From Rheinheimera lutimaris (GTDB lineage Bacteria > Pseudomonadota > Gammaproteobacteria > Enterobacterales > Alteromonadaceae), in contig NZ_JABSOD010000016.1 in NCBI RefSeq assembly GCF_013283795.1, positions 19,087-83,086 on the forward strand: a DNA stretch of 64,000 nt, written 5' to 3'. Positions 21,015 through 64,000 of the stretch are shown here, piece by piece. The notes beneath the pieces are model-generated. The model worked only from the letters and a program-made list of their open reading frames with translations. It made no database searches and was not told where the DNA came from. A program made the position numbers and the translations under genes. Every line of letters begins with the position of its first letter. Position 1 is the stretch's first letter.

Positions 21015-22750
<1,736 letters not shown>

Positions 22751-22758
<8 letters not shown>

Positions 22759-28539: not shown

Positions 28540-29568
28540 TTAGCTTGTCAGCATTGCTTCACTGGTTACCTGATTACGGCCCAATTGCTTGGCCAGTTGC
28601 AGCACTTGTGCCGTGCGGCCAAGAAACTGATACCAATTCTCACTATGCTGATACAGTGAGACGCCAAGTGAAATAGTAACTTTGGGTAAGGTTTTTTTAC
28701 TGCGGGATGACACAAAGCGCAGTTTCTCAACGCCGCGGCGCACTTGCTCGGCAATTTCACCTGCGGTGCGCAGGTCGACATCAGGCAGTAAGATCAAAAA
28801 TTCTTCTCCGCCGGAACGTACCGGCAGGCCACTGCTTTGTACATAACTGCTGATTTTTCGCGCCACTTTCGACAAAATAACATCGCCAATGGCATTGCCG
28901 TAATCGCGGTTAAAACTACTGAAATGGTCCAAATCTACTGCGATAGCAGCAATCTGCCGCTGTGGTTGCTCGCTGAACCAGATATCTAACTGATTTTGCA
29001 TGGCCAGCCGGTTATACAAACCGGTAAGCGGGTCCAGTAAGCGTTGTTGTTTTAACTGTTCCAGTTCATGCCGTAGTTGGTGGCTTTGCTGGTGGGTTTG
29101 CTGTAATTGCTGCAACAGTTGCTGTTGGCTCAGACGAAACGCAGCAGTGTGCTGCTGCAATTGCTCCAGTGCACGCCCGGCTTGTTCGTCATGCGTAACG
29201 CAATGTTGTAGCTGTGTAGCGCTGTTATCTAATTGCTGCAGGTAATCATCCAATTGCTCGGCGGCGATATCGCTGTAGCCTGCCATGCGGCTTACCATGC
29301 CGGCGGCGTCTTGTAACAATTGTTCCTGTTGCACATTGGCCGGTGTCAGAAAGCGGCTGTATAAATCCGCCATCACAAAATCGTCCAGCGGCACATTCGC
29401 CTGTAGTTTTTGTTCAATGGTCTGGCACAAGGCTGTGTTATGGCCACTGATATATTCATAGCATACGGCATAATTAACCGGGTGAGCGGCCAGCGCAGCA
29501 CGCTGCAAAAACGCTTTTACCTTAAGCGCCTTTTCGCCCGCCTGTTGCAGTGAATCCTGGTACTTCAT
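28540..29568 (-). CDS. Soluble diguanylate cyclase with N-terminal coiled-coil domain
   Basis: 342 residues from the ATG at 29568 (the in-frame upstream ATG adds 49 residues of uncharacteristic sequence). There is no membrane helix. The N-terminal half is helical (VNYAVCYEYISGHNTALC, then a long glutamine/leucine coiled coil at about 100-180); this cytosolic sensor region is found in several gammaproteobacterial cyclases. The C-terminal GGDEF domain (about 185-340) has DPLTGLYNRLAMQ, AVDLDHFSSFN and an intact RSGGEEFLILL. Cyclic di-GMP synthesis is expected. The trigger is unknown. Confidence 0.9.
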   Translation of the reverse strand: MKYQDSLQQAGEKALKVKAFLQRAALAAHPVNYAVCYEYISGHNTALCQTIEQKLQANVPLDDFVMADLYSRFLTPANVQQEQLLQDAAGMVSRMAGYSDIAAEQLDDYLQQLDNSATQLQHCVTHDEQAGRALEQLQQHTAAFRLSQQQLLQQLQQTHQQSHQLRHELEQLKQQRLLDPLTGLYNRLAMQNQLDIWFSEQPQRQIAAIAVDLDHFSSFNRDYGNAIGDVILSKVARKISSYVQSSGLPVRSGGEEFLILLPDVDLRTAGEIAEQVRRGVEKLRFVSSRSKKTLPKVTISLGVSLYQHSENWYQFLGRTAQVLQLAKQLGRNQVTSEAMLTS

Positions 29569-29705
29569 AAGACCACTTATAACTCCGCTTGCCGGCACAA
29601 AAAACTGCGGCCGGCATGATGTTAAGCTGTATAGACAACGCCATAGTACGCGAATATTTATTACTGGCAACCGCTCTGTAGCGGCAGTTAGATAAAGCGG
29701 TGAAA

Positions 29706-29783
29706 ATGCAGGCAAAACGCCGGCTTTATCAGCACGGCAAAGGTTGTAAAGCAGAAAAGCAGCGGCGGGAAAAGCAAGATTAA
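29706..29783 (+). CDS. Possible 25-residue basic small protein
   Basis: The 285-base gap between the divergent GGDEF and DUF885 genes contains ATG...TAA coding for 25 residues, MQAKRRLYQHGKGCKAEKQR and five more. About a third of the residues are Lys/Arg. GGTG lies just upstream, and a GTG two codons earlier is an alternative start. The composition is unusual for random sequence, but at this length coding cannot be shown without conservation. The rest of the gap holds no recognisable gene. Confidence 0.25.
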   Translation: MQAKRRLYQHGKGCKAEKQRREKQD

Positions 29784-55968: not shown

Positions 55969-56694
55969 ATGGCAAGTTCGGAAACGCCAAAAATTCTTGT
56001 GGTTGATGATGATATGCGCTTGCGCGCTTTACTGGAGCGTTATCTGGTTGAGCAAGGTTATATAGTGCGCAGTGTCGCCAACTATGAACAAATGCAGCGG
56101 CTGATGGAGCGGGAGAACTTTCATCTGGTGGTGCTCGATCTTATGCTGCCGGGCGAGGATGGTTTGTCTATTTGCCGCCGCCTGCGCCAGCAGGAAAACG
56201 AAATCCCTATTATTATGCTGACGGCAAAAGGCGATGAAGTCGACCGCATTATCGGCCTGGAAATGGGTGCCGACGACTACCTGCCAAAACCCTTTAACCC
56301 GCGCGAATTACTGGCGCGTATTCGTGCCGTAATGCGGCGCAAAAGTAAAGAATTGCCGGGCGCCCCCAGCCAGGCCGAGGGTAGCGTAGAATTTGGCCCG
56401 TTTAAATTTAACCTGGCCACACGCGAGATGCGCAAAGGCGATGAATTGTTGCCGCTAACCAGCGGTGAATATGCGGTGCTCAAAGTGCTGGTTAGCCATC
56501 CGCGTGAGCCGTTATCGCGTGATAAACTGATGAACCAGGCGCGTGGCCGTGATTACTCGGCCATGGAGCGCAGTATCGACGTGCAGGTATCGCGCTTGCG
56601 CCGGATGCTGGAGGACGACGCCGCTAACCCGCGCTATATTCAAACAGTATGGGGCCTGGGTTATGTATTTGTGCCGGATGGCAGCGTCAGCTAG
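55969..56694 (+). CDS. ompR: Two-component response regulator OmpR
   Basis: 241 residues: a receiver domain with phospho-acceptor Asp57 (LVVLDLMLPGEDG) and Lys in LPKPFNPRELLARI, and a winged-helix DNA-binding domain at about 135-235 (LTSGEYAVLKVLVSHPREPLSRDKLMNQARGRDYSAMERSIDVQVSRLRRML). Controls porins and envelope functions in response to osmolarity through EnvZ. Stop and envZ start are directly adjacent (TAG-ATG). Confidence 0.97.
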   Translation: MASSETPKILVVDDDMRLRALLERYLVEQGYIVRSVANYEQMQRLMERENFHLVVLDLMLPGEDGLSICRRLRQQENEIPIIMLTAKGDEVDRIIGLEMGADDYLPKPFNPRELLARIRAVMRRKSKELPGAPSQAEGSVEFGPFKFNLATREMRKGDELLPLTSGEYAVLKVLVSHPREPLSRDKLMNQARGRDYSAMERSIDVQVSRLRRMLEDDAANPRYIQTVWGLGYVFVPDGSVS

Positions 56695-57999
56695 ATGCGT
56701 TGCTTCCCGCGCAGTGCCTTTGGCCAAACCGTATTCCTGATTGGTTTGTTGTTACTGATCAACCAACTGGTGTCTTACCTGTCGGTGGCATTTTATGTGA
56801 TAAAACCCACTACGCAGCAAATTAACCACCTTATTGCCAAGCAAATTAAAGTGGTGTTTATTGACGTTGGCCATCAGCAGTCAGTGCTGTCAACTGAGTT
56901 GACAGAGCGTTTTCAGCAAGCCACCGGCATTGAAGTGTATACCGAGCAGCAAGCATTACAGCAGGGGTTGGCAGAGGCCAGTTACTACGCCTACTTTTCT
57001 GATCTGATGTCACGCGAATTAGGCGGCGAAGCTGAGGTGCGGGTAGCCCAGGGTGCCAGCTATGCGTTTTGGGTGCGGCCACCTCAGGCACCGCAATACT
57101 GGGTAAAGGTGCCGTTAACCGGGCTGGATGAAACTGACTTCTCGCCACTGACCTTTTACTTGTTGCTAATCGGCGTGCTGAGCGTCAGCGGCGGCTGGCT
57201 GTTTGCGCGGCAGTTAAACCGACCGCTGAAAAGCCTGCAACAGGCCGCCTTGCAGGTGGGGCGCGGCGAGTTTCCGCCGCCACTGGCCGAGCACAAAGGC
57301 TCTACCGAAATTATTGCCGTAACCAAAGCCTTTAATTATATGGCGCGCGGTATTCGTCAGTTAGAGCAGGACAGGGCGCTGCTAATGGCCGGGGTGTCGC
57401 ATGACTTACGCACGCCGCTCACGCGTATCCGTTTAGCATCGGAAATGATGCAGGAGCCGGACAACTGGATCCGCGAAGGCATTATTAACGATATTGACGA
57501 TATGAACGCCATTATCGACCAGTTTATTGACTACCTGCGCCATCATAAAGAAGAGCCCGGCCAGAAAGAGAACCTCAATACCTTAGTGCAGGAGTTGATA
57601 CAGGCCGAGCATTTACAACAGCGGCATATTTCTGCTGAATTGGCAAAAAACCTGCCTGATACCATGCTGCGGCGTATAGCCATTAAACGCGTATTGAATA
57701 ATTTGCTGGAAAACGCACTGCGTTACAGCGATGGTGATATTGAAATATCCACCGGCTATGAGCGCAACCGCAAGCGGATTTACCTGCAAATTCGTGATCA
57801 TGGCCCTGGCATTCCGGATGAACAGATGAAAGCCATGTTCGAGCCTTTCACTCAGGGCGATATAGCCCGCGGCAGTGGTGGGTCGGGCTTGGGGCTGGCA
57901 ATTATTAAGAAAATTGTCGATATGCATCATGGCGATATTACTTTGCATAATCATGCCTACGGCGGCTTAGTGGTAACAGTGTATTTGCCGCTGCGGTAG
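56695..57999 (+). CDS. envZ: Osmosensor histidine kinase EnvZ
   Basis: 434 residues: two membrane helices (about 10-35 and 150-172) around a periplasmic domain, HAMP domain, the dimerisation/phospho-acceptor H-box with His236 ([20 protein letters not shown]), and a HATPase domain with N box ([11 protein letters not shown]), G1 (DHGPGIPDE), F (FEPFTQGD) and G2 ([11 protein letters not shown]). Immediately follows ompR. The stop is followed by a 7-bp TTTGTAA/TTACAAA stem (58007-58026) without a T run. Confidence 0.96.
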
Positions 58000-58042
58000 A
58001 GCTTTATTTGTAAACATTGTTACAAAATTGGCCGGAAATAAC

Positions 58043-58071
58043 TTGTCAGTTTGTAATTAGTTGTATATCTT
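58043..58071 (+). promoter_or_regulatory. Promoter candidate for the riboswitch-tpsBA transcript
   Basis: TTGTCA (58043-58048) and TATCTT (58066-58071) with a 17-base spacer. Transcription would begin near 58078, about 37 bases before the riboswitch aptamer. Confidence 0.45.
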
Positions 58072-58114
58072 GCTTTTGTTCAGCTTGTGTTTAATTTCTC
58101 AACACTTCTCACAG

Positions 58115-58218
58115 GCTAAGACAATTAAAGGGCAAACTGCACCGAAAGGGCAGGACGCAAAGCCGCTGGTCTAATAACGTTCGTTATGAATGTTAATGAC
58201 GGCAGTGGTTGCATTAGC
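58115..58218 (+). ncRNA. Cyclic-di-GMP-I (GEMM-I) riboswitch aptamer
   Basis: The conserved GEMM-I core is present almost letter for letter. GGGCAAAC (58130-58137) opens a hairpin CTGC-A-CC with GAAA tetraloop (58144-58147) and GG-GCAG. This is followed by GGACGCAAAGCC (58153-58164) and the GGTCTAA segment. A second hairpin ends in ATGACGGCAGTGGTTGC (58196-58212). Pairings hold: CCGCTG with CAGTGG, GCAA (58132-58135) with TTGC (58209-58212), and an outer GCTAA (58115-58119) with TTAGC (58214-58218). The GAAA tetraloop and the separate receptor stem are class I features. It lies in the leader of the TpsB gene, 142 bases before its GTG. Confidence 0.95.
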
Positions 58219-58310
58219 TTAGTCGCATTCGTTTGTTGTACTTCCCGTTGCCAGTTAGCAACAGTACGCCATTGCGCTTTTCTATGCTGTTTGCCGGTAT
58301 ATAGTTACGG

Positions 58311-58327
58311 CGCCGGTTTTGCCGGCG
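58311..58327 (+). promoter_or_regulatory. Hairpin between riboswitch and TpsB start (possible expression platform)
   Basis: CGCCGG (58311-58316) and CCGGCG (58322-58327) are exact complements around TTTTG. No T run follows, so it is not an intrinsic terminator. Lying 33 bases before the GTG, it could influence ribosome access or pause polymerase, but the actual switching mechanism is not visible. Confidence 0.35.
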
Positions 58328-58359
58328 GCTGTGTGGTAAATGCCAGGGAAGATGCCTCA

Positions 58360-60051
58360 GTGAAGTATTTAACAACCGCCCGGCTATTATGGCTGCTACT
58401 GTATGTGGCAGGCTTTGGCGTGCAGGCGCAAAGCTTGTCTGAGCACGAAAAACAGCTTAAACAGGGCTTAGACCGGCTGGAGCAGCAAATAGCACCGCTG
58501 CAACAGCGGCCTGAAGTGCGTTTGCAGCGGCCTGAGGCTGTTATTACTGATTTCTCTGCGCTGGAAAACACAGAGCAGTGTTTTGCTGTTAACGCTATTA
58601 ATGTACAAGGCAGCGTTAAACTTAGCCCGAAACAGATCACTCAGATCACGCAGCCTTTTGTCGGGCAATGTTTGGGCCTGGCGCATATCAACGCTCTGGT
58701 GGGCGCCATCTCCAATTTGTATCTTGAACAAGGCTATGTCACCAGCCGCGCTTATATCGCCCCGCAAGATTTATCTGACGGCAGCTTAGACCTGGTGGTG
58801 GTCGAAGGCGTGATTGAAGGTTTTGATTCTGTTGACGGCAGTATTACGCCGCAGCAGCTGAAGTGGGCCTTTCCGGCACAGCCCGGTGAGGTGTTGAATA
58901 TCCGCGCGCTGGAGCACGGTATTGAGAACCTTAATAGCGTGGCCCGGAACAATGCCAAAGTAGACCTGACGCCGGGTGCAGAGCAGGGCGGCACCCTGGT
59001 GGGTATCGCCAATCAGACTGCCAGGCCGTGGCGCGGCTCGTTGGGCGTTAATAATAACGGTGTGGCCAGTACCGGTGAGTATCAGTTAGATGGCAACCTG
59101 GTATTTGACAATGTGTTTGGCCTGAACGACACCGCCTTTCTATCGGCATCTACCAACATTGGCGGTCATGAGTTACCGCACGCCGAGTCACGCAGTTACG
59201 CTGCGTCCTGGTCATTGCCGTTTGGTTACTGGCAGTTTTCCCTGAGTAATAACTACTATGCCTATGAGCAAACGGTAGTAGGTAATGTGATAGATTTTTC
59301 CATTTCCGGCTCCTCACTTAACAGCGGCATGCAACTGGGCCGCAATCTGTATCGCAGCCAAACCGGCAAGCTTGACTTTACACTCGGCTTTACCCGCAAA
59401 GACAGCAAAAACTACATTGAAGACATCTTTTTAGAAACCTCGTCCAGAACCTTGTATGTTTGGGATCTGGCTGCCGGTTACCGGCATTTTCTGCCGCAGG
59501 GTACTCTCAGCTTCAATGCCGGCATTATCAAAAGTGTGGCCTGGTTTGATGCTAAGCGGCAAGTGGTGGCGGCTGAGGATGATTTTCAGTTCACCAAGTA
59601 CCGGCTGAATGTTGGTTATAACACGCAACTGGAGTTGGCCGGGCAGCCGTTGCTTTATGCCGCCTCGGCGGAACTACTTTATTCGCCTAAGGTGATCCTG
59701 GCGTCTGAAGGTCTCACCGTCGGCGGGCGTTACTCGGTGCGCGGTTTATCACAAAGCAGCTTGTTTGGTTATAAAGGCGGTTACTTGCGCAACGATATCA
59801 GCCTGCCACTGCAAACCGATTGGGCAGAGCTGAACCAGTTGCACTATTTCTTTGGTGTAGATGCCGGCTGGTCTAACTTGCCTGAATACCCGGATAAGCG
59901 CCGCGAGTGGGTCGCCGGCTCGGTGGTTGGCGTCAAACTGTTTGATCGCAACCTCAGTATCACAATTTCTTACGCCCGTGCGCTCAGAGTGCCGGATTTT
60001 CTGCAGCAAAAGCAGCAGGAAATCGATGTCTCTGTCAGATTAAATTTTTAA
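58360..60051 (+). CDS. TpsB two-partner secretion outer-membrane transporter (ShlB/FhaC/HecB family)
   Basis: 563 residues from the GTG at 58360, which has AGGGAA upstream and begins a good signal peptide (KYLTTARLLWLLLYVAGFGVQAQS). An in-frame ATG at 58186 lies inside the riboswitch and is rejected. An N-terminal helix and linker (about 25-75), two POTRA domains (about 80-235, with FAVNAINVQGSVKLSPKQI and GYVTSRAYIAPQDLSDGSLDLVVVEGVIEGF), then a 16-strand barrel ending in an aromatic residue (VSVRLNF). The barrel motif LTVGGRYSVRGLSQSSLFG is the conserved VRGY/F-type loop. It should secrete the TpsA encoded 16 bases downstream. Confidence 0.94.
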   Translation: MKYLTTARLLWLLLYVAGFGVQAQSLSEHEKQLKQGLDRLEQQIAPLQQRPEVRLQRPEAVITDFSALENTEQCFAVNAINVQGSVKLSPKQITQITQPFVGQCLGLAHINALVGAISNLYLEQGYVTSRAYIAPQDLSDGSLDLVVVEGVIEGFDSVDGSITPQQLKWAFPAQPGEVLNIRALEHGIENLNSVARNNAKVDLTPGAEQGGTLVGIANQTARPWRGSLGVNNNGVASTGEYQLDGNLVFDNVFGLNDTAFLSASTNIGGHELPHAESRSYAASWSLPFGYWQFSLSNNYYAYEQTVVGNVIDFSISGSSLNSGMQLGRNLYRSQTGKLDFTLGFTRKDSKNYIEDIFLETSSRTLYVWDLAAGYRHFLPQGTLSFNAGIIKSVAWFDAKRQVVAAEDDFQFTKYRLNVGYNTQLELAGQPLLYAASAELLYSPKVILASEGLTVGGRYSVRGLSQSSLFGYKGGYLRNDISLPLQTDWAELNQLHYFFGVDAGWSNLPEYPDKRREWVAGSVVGVKLFDRNLSITISYARALRVPDFLQQKQQEIDVSVRLNF

Positions 60052-60067
60052 GTCAGGAAGAACCGGT

Positions 60068-63000
60068 ATGTTTAGCATGAAATGGCGCCTTGTTGTAGCA
60101 CGCACGTTAGTCATCGTTTTAGCAGGTAACCCGCTGCTTATGGCGGCGCATGGCATTGAGCGCTCACACAGACCCCCTGCAGATTTTGAGCTGACAGAGC
60201 GGCGTGAGCAGTTGCGCTTGCAATTACAGGCCACAGCCGCAGCCAGGGCGGCCGCGCAAGCTGCTAACAACACCGCACAACTGGCCGCCGGGCAACAGGC
60301 CGCGCAAAAGCACTCGGCTAACGGTACTGACGTGATTGATATTGCAGCGCCAGGCCAAAGCGGCGTGTCGCACAATCAGTTTATGCAGTTTAACGTTACT
60401 GCAGACGGTTTAATTTTAAATAACAGCCAGGGGCCGGCGTTATCTGCACTGGGTGGCTGGACCGACGGTAACCGCCGTTTAGCTGCCGGCACCGCCAGGC
60501 TTATTCTGGCCGAAGTTACCGGTAGCGGCCGTTCAAGTTTACTGGGTTATACCGAAGTGCTGGGTGACTCCGCTGAGTTTGTGTTAGCCAACCCTAATGG
60601 TATCAGCTGTAACGGTTGTGGCTTTATCAATACACCACGGGTGGTGTTGGCTACCGGTATTCCGGATTTACTTAACGGCAACCTGTTGGGCATTAACATC
60701 AGCGGCGGCGATGTGGCTATCGACGGCGCCGGCCTTAACGCGTCCAATGTAAACAAGTTCGACATTCTTACCCGCGCCATGACATTAAATGCCGCCCTGT
60801 ATGCTAACGAGCTGAATATCCGCACCGGCAGCAATTATTACGATTACCAGTCGCTGCAAGCGCAGGCTAATGCTAATCAACCGGACAGCAACCCGGCTTA
60901 TCAGTTTGCCTTAGATGCCTCGGCGCTGGGTGCCATGTATGCCAACAGCATTAGTTTAATTGGTACCGAAGCCGGTTTGGGGGTGCGCAGTAAGGGGCTT
61001 ATTTCTTCGGTAGACAGCCTGCAGCTAACGGCGGATGGCCGGTTAGAATTAAAAGATACTATCGCCGGTGGCGAGCTGGCGCTGCGCTCACAGCGCTCAG
61101 ATATTATTACCAACGGCAGCACTTATGGTCAAACCGTCAATATTGCCGCGGCTGGTACGCTGCAAAACAGCGGGTTAATTGCCGCCGCCGATACTATGCA
61201 GCTTAGTGCCGCACAGTTACAGCAAAGTGGTGATGTTATCGCCGGTATTAATCAGCAGGGGCAATGGCAGGACAGCGCAGCGCAGCAGCTGAATATCAGC
61301 GGCACTGCGGTTAATCAGGGCCGTATCATCAGCCGTGGCACTCAGCAACTGACAGCAAAAGAATTACAGAACAGCGCCGGGGCACTGCTGCAAGGCGATA
61401 GCAGCACCCTTACAACCACGGTGTTTAACAACAGCGGCACCCTTAACAGCAGTGCACTGACCTTAGATAGCGCCACAGTTAGCAACGCCGGGCATATTCA
61501 GGCACAGCAACTTAGCATCAATGCTGAGCAATTTAGCCAAACTGCCGGAGCGGTGTATCAAACCGGCGCAGACGGCCGGTTAAGTGTAACCGGCCGCGAG
61601 CTGCAGCTGGATGGTGGCGTCTTAGTGGCAGAAGGCAGCGCACAGCTTGAGGCAACCGGGCAACTTCACAACAGTGCGGACTGGTTAATCACCGGTGACA
61701 GTACCATTAGCACGGCAGAGCTGAGTAACAGTGGCACTGTGCAACTGCAAGGTGCTGCTGATTTAACCGCAGATAGTTTAAACAACAGCGGCAATATGCT
61801 GTTTACAGCAGAGCAGGCAACGGCACTAAACATAAAAAATACGCTGGATAACCAGGGCGGATTACTGCAGTTTGGCAACGCTGCCGTAGTTACTGCCGCT
61901 GAGATTAACAACGACAGTGGCCAAATCAGCCATACCGGCAGTGGCACTATGTCGCTGCAAGCCACACAGCAGCTGAATAATGCAGCTGGCCAAATTCTCA
62001 GCAACGGCACTATGCAGGTATCAGCCGCAGAGCTCAACAACCAACAAGGCATACTCAGCGCTGAGCAGCTTACGTTAACCGTTGGCGGTGATGTTAATAA
62101 TCAGGCCGGGACTATCCGCGGCACAACACTGAGTCTGGATGCGCAGCAGTTGAATAACGGCAGTGGCATTATTGCTGCTGCGGGGCAGTTGCAAATTAAT
62201 GCCGTAGCGTTACATAACAACGCCGGCGAAATCTACAGCGCCGGCCGGCTGAATATCAGCGGCGGTAATATCAGCAACGCCGGCGGTGCACTAATTTCGC
62301 AGTCAGATTTGCAGCTTAACGTGGCAGAGCTGGACAATAGCGGCGGTACGGTGCAAAGCGCAGGCGCTATGTTGCTGCACACTACCGCACTGGATAACCG
62401 GCAGGGGCGGATAGCGGCAGAAGCCGATATGCAACTGGCCGGCACCGTTATCAACAATCACGCCGGTACTATCCTCGGCAACACTCAGTTGGATATCAGT
62501 GCGCTGCAGCTGAACAATGATAACGGCAACCTGATAGCTGATACTGTTGACGTGCAACTCAGTGGAGTGCTCAGCAATAACACTGGTTTATTGCAGGCGA
62601 CGAATACTTTAACAGCCAATGCGGCGCAAATTGATAACAGCGGTGGCAGCATTCAGGCCACATCCGCACTGTTAAGCAGTCAACAAAGTCTGAATAACAG
62701 CGGCGGCACCATTAATGCGCAAGCCCTGGCATTAAGTACTGCCGCGCTGGATAACAGCTACGGCGTGATCCTGGCCAGCGACAGCGGCGACAATGCGCTG
62801 CAGCTAACCGGTATCAGCCAGCTGACGAACGACAACGGCACAGTTGCCAGCCACGGCAATAACTGGCAGCTGGTACTGGACAACCTGAGCAACGACAACG
62901 GCAAATTGCTGCATCTGGGCAGCGGCACCTTTACCTTGTCGCAGGCCGGCACCTTAAGCAACAGCGGTACTATCGCCGCAAACGTCAACCTGGTACTGAA

Positions 63001-64000
63001 TGCCACCGATGTGGTAAACAGCGGTACTTTGCAGGCGCAGCAACACCTGCAGCTTAATGCAGGGCTGAGCAACCAGGCCGGTGCGGTATTGGTAGCCAAT
63101 GATATTACAGTCAATGCGCCGGACCGGGCTATCAGCAATGCCGGCAGCGTGTCGGCAAACAATAGCCTGCAACTGGCCGGCGCCAGCCTGCATAACAGCC
63201 ATTTACTGTACGGCGGCAATAGTGCGGTAATAACGGCAGCCGATGTGGAAAACAGCGGCACTCTGTCGGCAGCTAATCTGGATGTAGCCGGCTTTAGCCT
63301 GCTGCAAAACAGCGGCCGTATCGAAAGTAACGCTGCCGCTTACAGTGGTGACATTCTGGACAACCAAAGTGGTGCCGTGCTGATTAATGCCGGCAATAGC
63401 GCTAATGGCTTGCAACTTAACGTGGCACAGCTGAGCAACAGCGGTACTGTGCATAACAGCAGCCTGGATATGAGCCTGGGCGGTAATTTAAGCAACAGCG
63501 GCAGCATTATTCACGCCGGTTTGGGCAGCTTGTTGTTGGGTAACAACGGCAGCATCAACAATGCCGGTGGCAGTATTGCCAGCGCCGGTACGGCAAATAT
63601 TCAAAACAGTATTGCCGGTGCCGGTACTGTGTACGCAGAACAAGGCATGCAACTGAGCAGCAGCGGCACCTTTGTTAATAACAGCCAGCTGTACAGCAAG
63701 GGCGATATCCTGGTAACCAGTGCACTGCATAACCAGGGCGGCAGCCTGTTAAGCGACGCCAACCTGACCATTGATACCAGCGGCAACGTGACCAACAGCG
63801 GTACCCTGCAGGGGCAAAACCTTAGCCTGACCAGCGCTGTGTTAAATAATAACGCCGGCACTATTACATCAACGGGTACTGATAATGCGCAAATCAGTGC
63901 TACCAGCCTGAGCAATAACAGTGGCGTTATTCAGGCCACTAATAACAACTTCAGCATAATTACCCGCAGTGGTGAGTTAAACAACAGCAACGGCCAAATT
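60068..64000 (+). CDS. Filamentous haemagglutinin-like TpsA adhesin/CdiA-like exoprotein (5' part, runs off window)
   Basis: Open for 1,311 codons from the ATG at 60068 to the window edge. A signal peptide (about 1-27, ending PLLMAAHG) precedes an unusual Ala/Gln-rich charged stretch (about 30-85). The TPS secretion domain follows: GVSHNQFMQFNVTADGLILNNS, then NPNGI (175-179) with Cys181/Cys184 in NGISCNGCGF. From about residue 350 it is FHA-type beta-helix repeats (L-x-N-x-G-x-I/L patterns). It is cotranscribed with tpsB. The C-terminus is not visible, so it may be an adhesin or a contact-dependent inhibition toxin carrier. Confidence 0.93.
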   Translation, partial: MFSMKWRLVVARTLVIVLAGNPLLMAAHGIERSHRPPADFELTERREQLRLQLQATAAARAAAQAANNTAQLAAGQQAAQKHSANGTDVIDIAAPGQSGVSHNQFMQFNVTADGLILNNSQGPALSALGGWTDGNRRLAAGTARLILAEVTGSGRSSLLGYTEVLGDSAEFVLANPNGISCNGCGFINTPRVVLATGIPDLLNGNLLGINISGGDVAIDGAGLNASNVNKFDILTRAMTLNAALYANELNIRTGSNYYDYQSLQAQANANQPDSNPAYQFALDASALGAMYANSISLIGTEAGLGVRSKGLISSVDSLQLTADGRLELKDTIAGGELALRSQRSDIITNGSTYGQTVNIAAAGTLQNSGLIAAADTMQLSAAQLQQSGDVIAGINQQGQWQDSAAQQLNISGTAVNQGRIISRGTQQLTAKELQNSAGALLQGDSSTLTTTVFNNSGTLNSSALTLDSATVSNAGHIQAQQLSINAEQFSQTAGAVYQTGADGRLSVTGRELQLDGGVLVAEGSAQLEATGQLHNSADWLITGDSTISTAELSNSGTVQLQGAADLTADSLNNSGNMLFTAEQATALNIKNTLDNQGGLLQFGNAAVVTAAEINNDSGQISHTGSGTMSLQATQQLNNAAGQILSNGTMQVSAAELNNQQGILSAEQLTLTVGGDVNNQAGTIRGTTLSLDAQQLNNGSGIIAAAGQLQINAVALHNNAGEIYSAGRLNISGGNISNAGGALISQSDLQLNVAELDNSGGTVQSAGAMLLHTTALDNRQGRIAAEADMQLAGTVINNHAGTILGNTQLDISALQLNNDNGNLIADTVDVQLSGVLSNNTGLLQATNTLTANAAQIDNSGGSIQATSALLSSQQSLNNSGGTINAQALALSTAALDNSYGVILASDSGDNALQLTGISQLTNDNGTVASHGNNWQLVLDNLSNDNGKLLHLGSGTFTLSQAGTLSNSGTIAANVNLVLNATDVVNSGTLQAQQHLQLNAGLSNQAGAVLVANDITVNAPDRAISNAGSVSANNSLQLAGASLHNSHLLYGGNSAVITAADVENSGTLSAANLDVAGFSLLQNSGRIESNAAAYSGDILDNQSGAVLINAGNSANGLQLNVAQLSNSGTVHNSSLDMSLGGNLSNSGSIIHAGLGSLLLGNNGSINNAGGSIASAGTANIQNSIAGAGTVYAEQGMQLSSSGTFVNNSQLYSKGDILVTSALHNQGGSLLSDANLTIDTSGNVTNSGTLQGQNLSLTSAVLNNNAGTITSTGTDNAQISATSLSNNSGVIQATNNNFSIITRSGELNNSNGQI

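Follow-up and report, generated by a model that had tools for sequence, protein, structure and literature searches.

A cyclic di-GMP-I riboswitch aptamer before a contact-dependent inhibition-like two-partner secretion locus of Rheinheimera lutimaris, and a candidate strand for its switching

The 64,000 nucleotides of Rheinheimera lutimaris DNA analysed here, referred to as the window (contig NZ_JABSOD010000016.1, positions 19,087 to 83,086 of the forward strand), end in a two-partner secretion (TPS) locus. Its transporter gene, tpsB, is followed by the giant tpsA and preceded by an mRNA leader with an aptamer of the cyclic di-GMP (c-di-GMP) class I type, and it is this leader, and how it might govern the genes behind it, that is dealt with below. 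The aptamer and the two genes are placed as follows.

58121 to 58216, + strand: c-di-GMP-I riboswitch aptamer (Rfam RF01051)
58360 to 60051, + strand: tpsB, TPS transporter, CdiB-like (ShlB barrel and POTRA domains)
60068 to 64000, + strand: start of tpsA (TPS secretion domain, haemagglutinin repeats), a gene that extends past the window

The aptamer and the two-partner secretion genes

The initial annotation had seen a GEMM-I aptamer in the tpsB leader and proposed a covariance search with the Rfam c-di-GMP-I model. That search, of the full 64 kb, gave a significant match to RF01051 at 58121-58216 on the + strand (59.3 bits, the gathering score being 35 bits; E 4.5e-9), which confirms the aptamer. 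The alignment spans model positions 1-87 of 87 with zero non-standard pairs marked, and both the GAAA tetraloop and the GGACGCAAAGCC consensus core are present with their pairs intact. No second Rfam family reaches its gathering score in the 64 kb, the RF01051 aptamer being the sole match there; it is one of 4 RF01051 copies in its genome. Judged by sequence, the c-di-GMP-I class gains a genuine new member here, and the aptamer is almost certainly real.

The aptamer is on the same strand as tpsB, and 143 bases separate its end at 58216 from the GTG at 58360. The tpsB start is best placed at that GTG because a signal-peptide-like stretch comes next, and for the same reason a longer in-frame start at 58186, within the aptamer, was rejected. 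The reading frame closes with the stop codon at 60049-60051 and its product has ShlB (8e-82), POTRA_2 (6e-27) and POTRA_3 (3.5e-14) domains. The tpsA ATG at 60068 follows after a gap of 16 bases, a spacing noted from the start and upheld by the checked coordinates, and the full TpsA of 3670 amino acids, continuing beyond the window, has a TPS domain and haemagglutinin repeats.

All 31 genomes searched of the genus have RF01051, with 62 copies among them, as do 92 of the 147 genomes sampled from the family. TpsB is present in 5 of the 31 genus genomes, with the aptamer just upstream in all 5, and (taking E up to 1e-40) in 15 of 395 family genomes. At 11 of these 15 family loci an aptamer of this clan is upstream of TpsB: the 5 of the genus, two with RF01051 (G254 and G340) and four with RF03167 (G043, G090, G123 and G151). 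Eight TpsB relatives are at named loci, those of Rheinheimera hassiensis, R. oceanensis, Rheinheimera sp. EpRS3, a gammaproteobacterial metagenome-assembled genome and four further genera, represented by Shewanella salipaludis (83%), Idiomarina tyrosinivorans, Aestuariibacter sp. and Alteromonas sp. The Shewanella tps locus has an RF03167 match of 48.8 bits, under the family cut-off of 59, and the Idiomarina tps locus an RF01051 match; the Aestuariibacter and Alteromonas tps loci gave no aptamer match.

That the aptamer in the window is a functionless relic is very improbable. Near-identical copies do occur elsewhere in the same genomes and the similarity may partly reflect recent duplication, but the match is full-length with no broken pair, and the association with TpsB recurs in several genera. 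Control of tpsBA by c-di-GMP is, on these sequence grounds, likely. Two points tell against it. At the TpsB loci of G072, G073, G110 and G357, a search allowing E up to 0.5 detected no aptamer. Where the aptamer is of RF03167, at four loci, tpsB starts 422-469 bases behind the aptamer start, and the stretch between them has an open reading frame (ORF) of 34-41 amino acids with a good Shine-Dalgarno sequence of its own; because this short ORF intervenes, direct control of tpsB is less certain there. (The ORFs of 34-41 amino acids found between a c-di-GMP-I-GGC aptamer and tpsB in four relatives with large genomes, L103-L106, resemble one another.) The two GGDEF proteins previously pointed out in the window are borne out by domain matches (22012-22758, - strand, E 2.7e-44; 28540-29715, - strand, E 7.2e-36).

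The CdiB-CdiA-CdiI loci of contact-dependent inhibition (CDI) consist of a TpsB transporter, a large TpsA with a variable C-terminal end (C-end) and a small immunity ORF. The tps loci resemble them in having TpsB, a large TpsA with TPS domain and repeats, a variable C-end and a small trailing ORF, which in the window's locus is of 101 amino acids and overlaps the tpsA stop by 4 bases. Ten tps loci were inspected and seven could be read to the TpsA end (window, G021, G024, G005, G014, G043 and G254); G340, which runs off its contig, and G072 and Shewanella, where the stretch is too short, are outside the counts. When the last 600 residues of the 7 proteins were compared in 21 pairs, 8 pairs aligned and all 8 alignments stopped 98-465 residues before the end. 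An ORF of 75-191 amino acids begins -59 to +2 bases from the tpsA stop in 7 of 7 loci, the loosest spacing being the -59 bases of G014. The TpsA C-end is PF21111 (CDI toxin EC869-like) in G024, at 6e-25, and PF14021 (TNT) in G021, at 3e-30.

Because the C-ends vary, a small ORF lies behind tpsA and two relatives end in Pfam toxin domains, the locus can with good confidence be taken as a CDI-like polymorphic toxin locus, whose toxicity and immunity we infer. The original annotation was right about the two-partner secretion pair with its giant TpsA; in calling TpsA a filamentous surface protein it probably gave only part of the picture. TpsA probably carries a polymorphic toxin in the manner of CdiA and is followed by an immunity-like ORF, and a plain filamentous adhesin is weakened by the variable C-ends, the trailing small ORFs and the toxin domains of the two relatives.

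Weighing on the other side is the window's own C-end: it has neither a Pfam nor a PDB-sequence match, and together with three other TpsA C-ends it lacks any Pfam match above the curated cut-off (that of G254 was outside the scan). Likewise, neither the VENN nor the (E/Q)LYN motif is in any of the 7 TpsA C-terminal parts (605 to 3678 residues), a difference from CdiB-CdiA-CdiI loci. Such a motif before the toxin is a CDI trait, though one not carried by all CDI proteins. Among plasmid records, of which 4 matched in all, the C-end of an RHS protein from Sphingomonas resembles that of the window (33% identity at E 9e-6), and 15 bases behind the gene for this RHS protein is a small gene. Of 274 genomes, 2 matched the window C-end, namely the window's own and a distant one, in which a frame is 42% identical (E 6.5e-20). 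Beyond the window, the contig end behind the 101 amino acid ORF (L063 14467-14941) may, by eye, read as a TpsA repeat fragment, which may be the arrangement of orphan toxin-immunity arrays.

A candidate switching element in the leader

The leader has these further features.

58043 to 58071, + strand: promoter-like site TTGTCA-17-TATCTT upstream of the aptamer (site scan; weak alone)
58114 to 58120, + strand: possible extended P1, 5′ strand GGCTAAG, pairing with 58218-58224 in the P2-forced fold
58131 to 58149, + strand: aptamer 5′ half (GGCAAACTGCA, then GAAAGG at 58144-58149), able to pair with the downstream element by complementarity and fold
58218 to 58224, + strand: possible extended P1, 3′ strand CTTAGTC, partner of 58114-58120 in the P2-forced fold
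58241 to 58246, + strand: possible anti-Shine-Dalgarno CUUCCC, pairing with GGGAAG 58346-58351
58277 to 58295, + strand: candidate switching element CUUUUCUAUGCUGUUUGCC, complementary to the aptamer 5′ half (complement tests; a related element is in all five leader classes)
58307 to 58331, + strand: GC-rich hairpin region (fold; without conservation)
58346 to 58351, + strand: Shine-Dalgarno-like GGGAAG of tpsB (sequence, alignment)

Between the aptamer and the tpsB start there is no terminator-like site. The 5 such sites in 57950-60120 (shuffle mean 3.1) are all outside this stretch, so an intrinsic terminator was rejected as the leader mechanism, in agreement with what had been annotated. The annotation had also found the mechanism not obvious. 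That no longer holds entirely, as there is now a candidate element at 58277-58295 and, at 58241-58246, a stretch able to cover the Shine-Dalgarno sequence. A 6-bp hairpin had been given at 58311-58327; a hairpin is indeed predicted there, with 12 pairs and a bulge in the fold. It is unlikely as a common switch, because nothing corresponds to it when four Rheinheimera-group relatives are aligned.

The tpsB leader is not the only one of its type in the genus. Near-identical aptamers precede a flagellar operon (MotY-like protein, sigma-54 regulator, FliE, FliF and FliG by Pfam at one locus), larger lipoprotein-like genes (lipo490 and lipo470) and a small lipoprotein-like gene (p121). There are 10 flagellar leaders in 10 genomes, nine of them assigned by likeness of the leader and first ORF. 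Behind an aptamer of a more distant type is a DUF3718 gene, as checked in one locus. Two further aptamer-led, lipoprotein-like genes without a Pfam match (L043 5215-6618, 468 amino acids; L049 5152-5493, 114 amino acids) are candidate members of the same c-di-GMP regulon.

In alignments by class the element has the common form UUUCUAUGYNGUUUNCC, with its core 155-168 bases behind the aptamer start. When 27 leaders were compared, with the place of the element picked as the best among pattern matches, 17 to 23 of 28 positions were complementary to the aptamer 5′ half. A test free of that choice, made for 14 of the 27 leaders, took a 21-nt segment of the aptamer and sought its best complement without gaps in the whole stretch from aptamer to start codon, with 500 shuffles. 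In 14 of 14 the best complement falls on the element (offset 149-161); 0 to 51 of the 500 shuffles reach its score, and 10 or fewer do so in 10 of the 14 leaders (exactly 10 for the window; 42 for Shewanella, 23 for G340, 32 and 51 for two lipo490 leaders). With a 14-nt segment and 200 shuffles for all 62 leaders of the genus, the score was reached by at most 4 shuffles in 18 of the 26 leaders of tps-flagellar type versus 7 of the 36 others. Since these seven (L016, L019, L026, L027, L030, L033 and L055) also have a stretch strongly complementary to the aptamer 5′ half, a platform with a complementary element may extend beyond the tps-flagellar type. One pair position between element and aptamer is A-U in 19, G-C in 6 and G-U in 1 of the 27 leaders. 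A test by duplex energy gave 1 to 3 of 200 shuffles for four tps relatives of the window; as support it is strong for some relatives and fails for the window itself.

That the element is a general property of class I leaders was rejected because no leader of 28 from other genera had a complement reached by 4 or fewer of 200 shuffles (16-nt segment; closest 13 and 14). These were the 28 with a usable motif among the 30 best-matching loci, and so not a random sample. In the leader of the Shewanella salipaludis tps locus the GUUUGCC part occurs twice (L110, about 2880-2980).

The minimum-energy fold of the window leader employs the pairing of element and aptamer. Forcing the aptamer P2 with its adjoining GC pairs costs 2.1 kcal/mol, and the resulting fold has the extended P1 (58114-58120 with 58218-58224) and the Shine-Dalgarno sequence paired with CUUCCC. 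This latter pairing, 58241-58246 with 58346-58351, is in both the downstream-only and the aptamer-forced folds. Because the element-aptamer and CUUCCC-Shine-Dalgarno helices cross, they are mutually exclusive under nested pairing, and the bound and unbound folds of the leader are, by the model, exclusive and bistable. The window pair positions, when forced in 13 other leaders with a valid offset, cost 0.7 to 10.1 kcal/mol, values that are approximate because P2 does not have the same letters in all of them; a Shewanella value of 16.5 kcal/mol stems from an offset wrong by one base and is disregarded. All 6 tps leaders in the alignment have GGGAAGA without change; CUUCCC shows no conservation in the four aligned relatives of the genus.

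A switching element peculiar to this lineage is plausible by sequence, and the strand at 58277-58295 is quite probably the one that switches. Several results for the window leader detract from this. It does not pass the 14-nt test, where the element is not the best site and 139 of 200 shuffles reach the best score, and the duplex-energy test favours another site, reached by 86 of 200 shuffles. The pair position mentioned above is G-G here, the element being imperfect and weaker than in most relatives. Nor do the fold energies stand out (z -1.48 and -1.17).

The direction of switching

Built upon the aptamer, its repeated association with TpsB and the complementarity of the element to the aptamer 5′ half, all present in the sequences themselves, the model towards which we lean is that the riboswitch in the tpsB leader governs a CDI-like locus (tpsB, tpsA with its variable toxin-like C-end and the immunity-like small ORF) by way of an element that invades the aptamer, and is OFF at high c-di-GMP. 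In the absence of c-di-GMP, the element at 58277-58295 would invade the aptamer, as in the predicted minimum-energy fold. When c-di-GMP is present, the aptamer would keep its own 5′ half and the element would be released, on which the leader would refold and a pyrimidine stretch would cover the tpsB Shine-Dalgarno sequence (58241-58246 here, the element itself in relatives). High c-di-GMP would then mean less translation of the secretion locus, as modelled for the flagellar and small lipoprotein-like sister leaders.

The direction was modelled by comparing the energy for opening the ribosome site in the whole leader, representing the unbound state, and in the part behind the aptamer alone, representing the bound state. 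In this model, binding raises the opening energy in all 10 flagellar leaders (by 5.3 kcal/mol on average), 4 of 4 p121 (4.7), 2 of 2 lipo470 (3.6), 4 of 4 lipo490 (1.4) and 5 of 7 tps leaders (mean 1.4 kcal/mol). As a control, the aptamer block of 22 leaders was swapped for 40 shuffles and those that opened the site as well as the real one were counted. Five flagellar leaders gave counts of 0, 0, 2, 1 and 4 of 40, the four p121 leaders gave 0 of 40 every time and the G340 tps leader gave 3 of 40. The models support OFF for the flagellar and p121 leaders. In the bound model of one sister c-di-GMP-I leader of the flagellar operon (L064; G000 contig 50, aptamer 100219-100313, - strand), the element pairs with the Shine-Dalgarno sequence, and a translational OFF switch is predicted.

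For tpsB, we infer OFF from the anatomy that its leader shares with these sister leaders, and OFF at high c-di-GMP is the output that we favour. The energies of tps leaders do not bear this out: the bound-minus-free values of tps leaders are mixed (-3.0 to +6.4), and the shuffle control fails for the window and four tps relatives of the genus (28, 16, 15, 17 and 35 of 40), with 9 of 40 for the Shewanella tps leader and 8 to 29 of 40 for six lipo490 and lipo470 leaders. Having failed this control, the energy argument for OFF in tps leaders was set aside.

The opposite sign, an ON switch in which c-di-GMP turns tpsBA on as for a biofilm adhesin and the freed element opens the ribosome site, appears rather unlikely. 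Passages of PMC4744006 report an ON element of class I in Vibrio cholerae, Vc1 (gbpA), two of the 7 tps leaders have a lower opening energy in the bound model (-0.2 and -3.0), and the shuffled-aptamer control gives OFF no support for the tps leaders of the genus. Set against this are the pairing of the Shine-Dalgarno sequence in the window's aptamer-forced fold, the G340 tps, flagellar and p121 leaders, which have the same element and point to OFF, and the CDI-like nature of the locus, by which the adhesin argument is weakened. We give little credence to action through Rho-dependent termination or RNA decay in place of translation initiation. The leader is without a terminator-like site and its pyrimidine-rich element is presumably single-stranded in one state, both in keeping with such action, but the flagellar and p121 leaders model as Shine-Dalgarno-directed.

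A wider form of the OFF model concerns how these leaders arose. The promoter-like site is weak by itself (1 found, 2.0 expected in shuffles). Within the genus, 4 other tps leaders retain the stretch TTGTCA...TATATCTTGC of which it is part, and the lipoprotein-like and p121 leaders have it slightly changed, so that most classes have it, the flagellar not. A direct repeat of the form GTTCAG-TT--GTTCA at 58078-58093 (its second half GTTTA in the window) has similar counterparts upstream of paralogous aptamers (upstream regions of L034 and L064). Recurrence of the repeat and of TTGTCA...TATATCTTGC before paralogous aptamers suggests that promoter and aptamer were copied together. Tentatively, a cassette of promoter, aptamer and platform may have been copied, within one and the same bacterium, before the flagellar operon, lipoprotein-like genes and a CDI-like weapon, and c-di-GMP would shut off motility and contact-dependent killing together at the RNA level, by means of a lineage-specific platform invading the aptamer from the 5′ side. 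Directly upstream of the tps locus, on the same strand, are a response regulator (Trans_reg_C) and a histidine kinase (55969-57999).

Known c-di-GMP switches and the place of this one

The window aptamer is a full-length match to the RF01051 c-di-GMP-I (GEMM-I) riboswitches, and four relatives match the sister family RF03167; what differs is the target, here a CDI-like two-partner secretion locus. V. cholerae Vc2 (tfoY), also of class I, prevents translation by hiding the ribosome-binding site, according to passages of PMC10482370 and PMC6618264, and at low c-di-GMP TfoY and type VI secretion rise through it. The weapon is there, by those passages, reached through a regulator, whereas the tpsB switch would sit on the weapon locus itself. 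For Clostridioides difficile Cd1 and Geobacter pilM, a portion of PMC9262584 has a downstream switching strand T that pairs with strand A and acts through terminators. The downstream strand competing with the aptamer resembles that proposed for the tpsB leader; the tpsB element differs, as far as that portion goes, in complementing the aptamer 5′ half and in lying where no terminator was found. The same portion names the G20 position of Vc2 as a factor in ligand selectivity.

Class I switches have both signs. Parts of a review (PMC6366702) give functional C. difficile switches as OFF and Bacillus thuringiensis Bc2 as ON, and two V. cholerae class I switches as of opposite sign, neither acting by termination. 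For V. cholerae Vc1, passages of PMC4744006 (2016) state that a terminator or anti-Shine-Dalgarno was not apparent and that the mechanism was unclear to its authors.

No report of a c-di-GMP riboswitch on a two-partner secretion, filamentous hemagglutinin or contact-dependent inhibition locus was found in the titles and abstract openings of the open-access papers searched in full text, in which the phrase ‘contact-dependent growth inhibition’ was not searched, nor, judged in the same way, did those on riboswitches in Rheinheimera or on c-di-GMP riboswitches and lateral flagella describe such a switch. The riboswitch class and translational control are already known; the CDI-like target and the strand exchange on the 5′ side appear new within the literature searched.

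The position of the aptamer before what reads as a CDI-like locus is a repeated and unexpected one. If the model is true, an antibacterial two-partner secretion system has its mRNA as the direct target of c-di-GMP, and the motile-sessile decision is tied to competition without an intermediate transcription factor. The tpsB leader would also give class I switches that lack a terminator an expression platform open to test, and a lifestyle signal may in this way set when a contact-dependent weapon is made.

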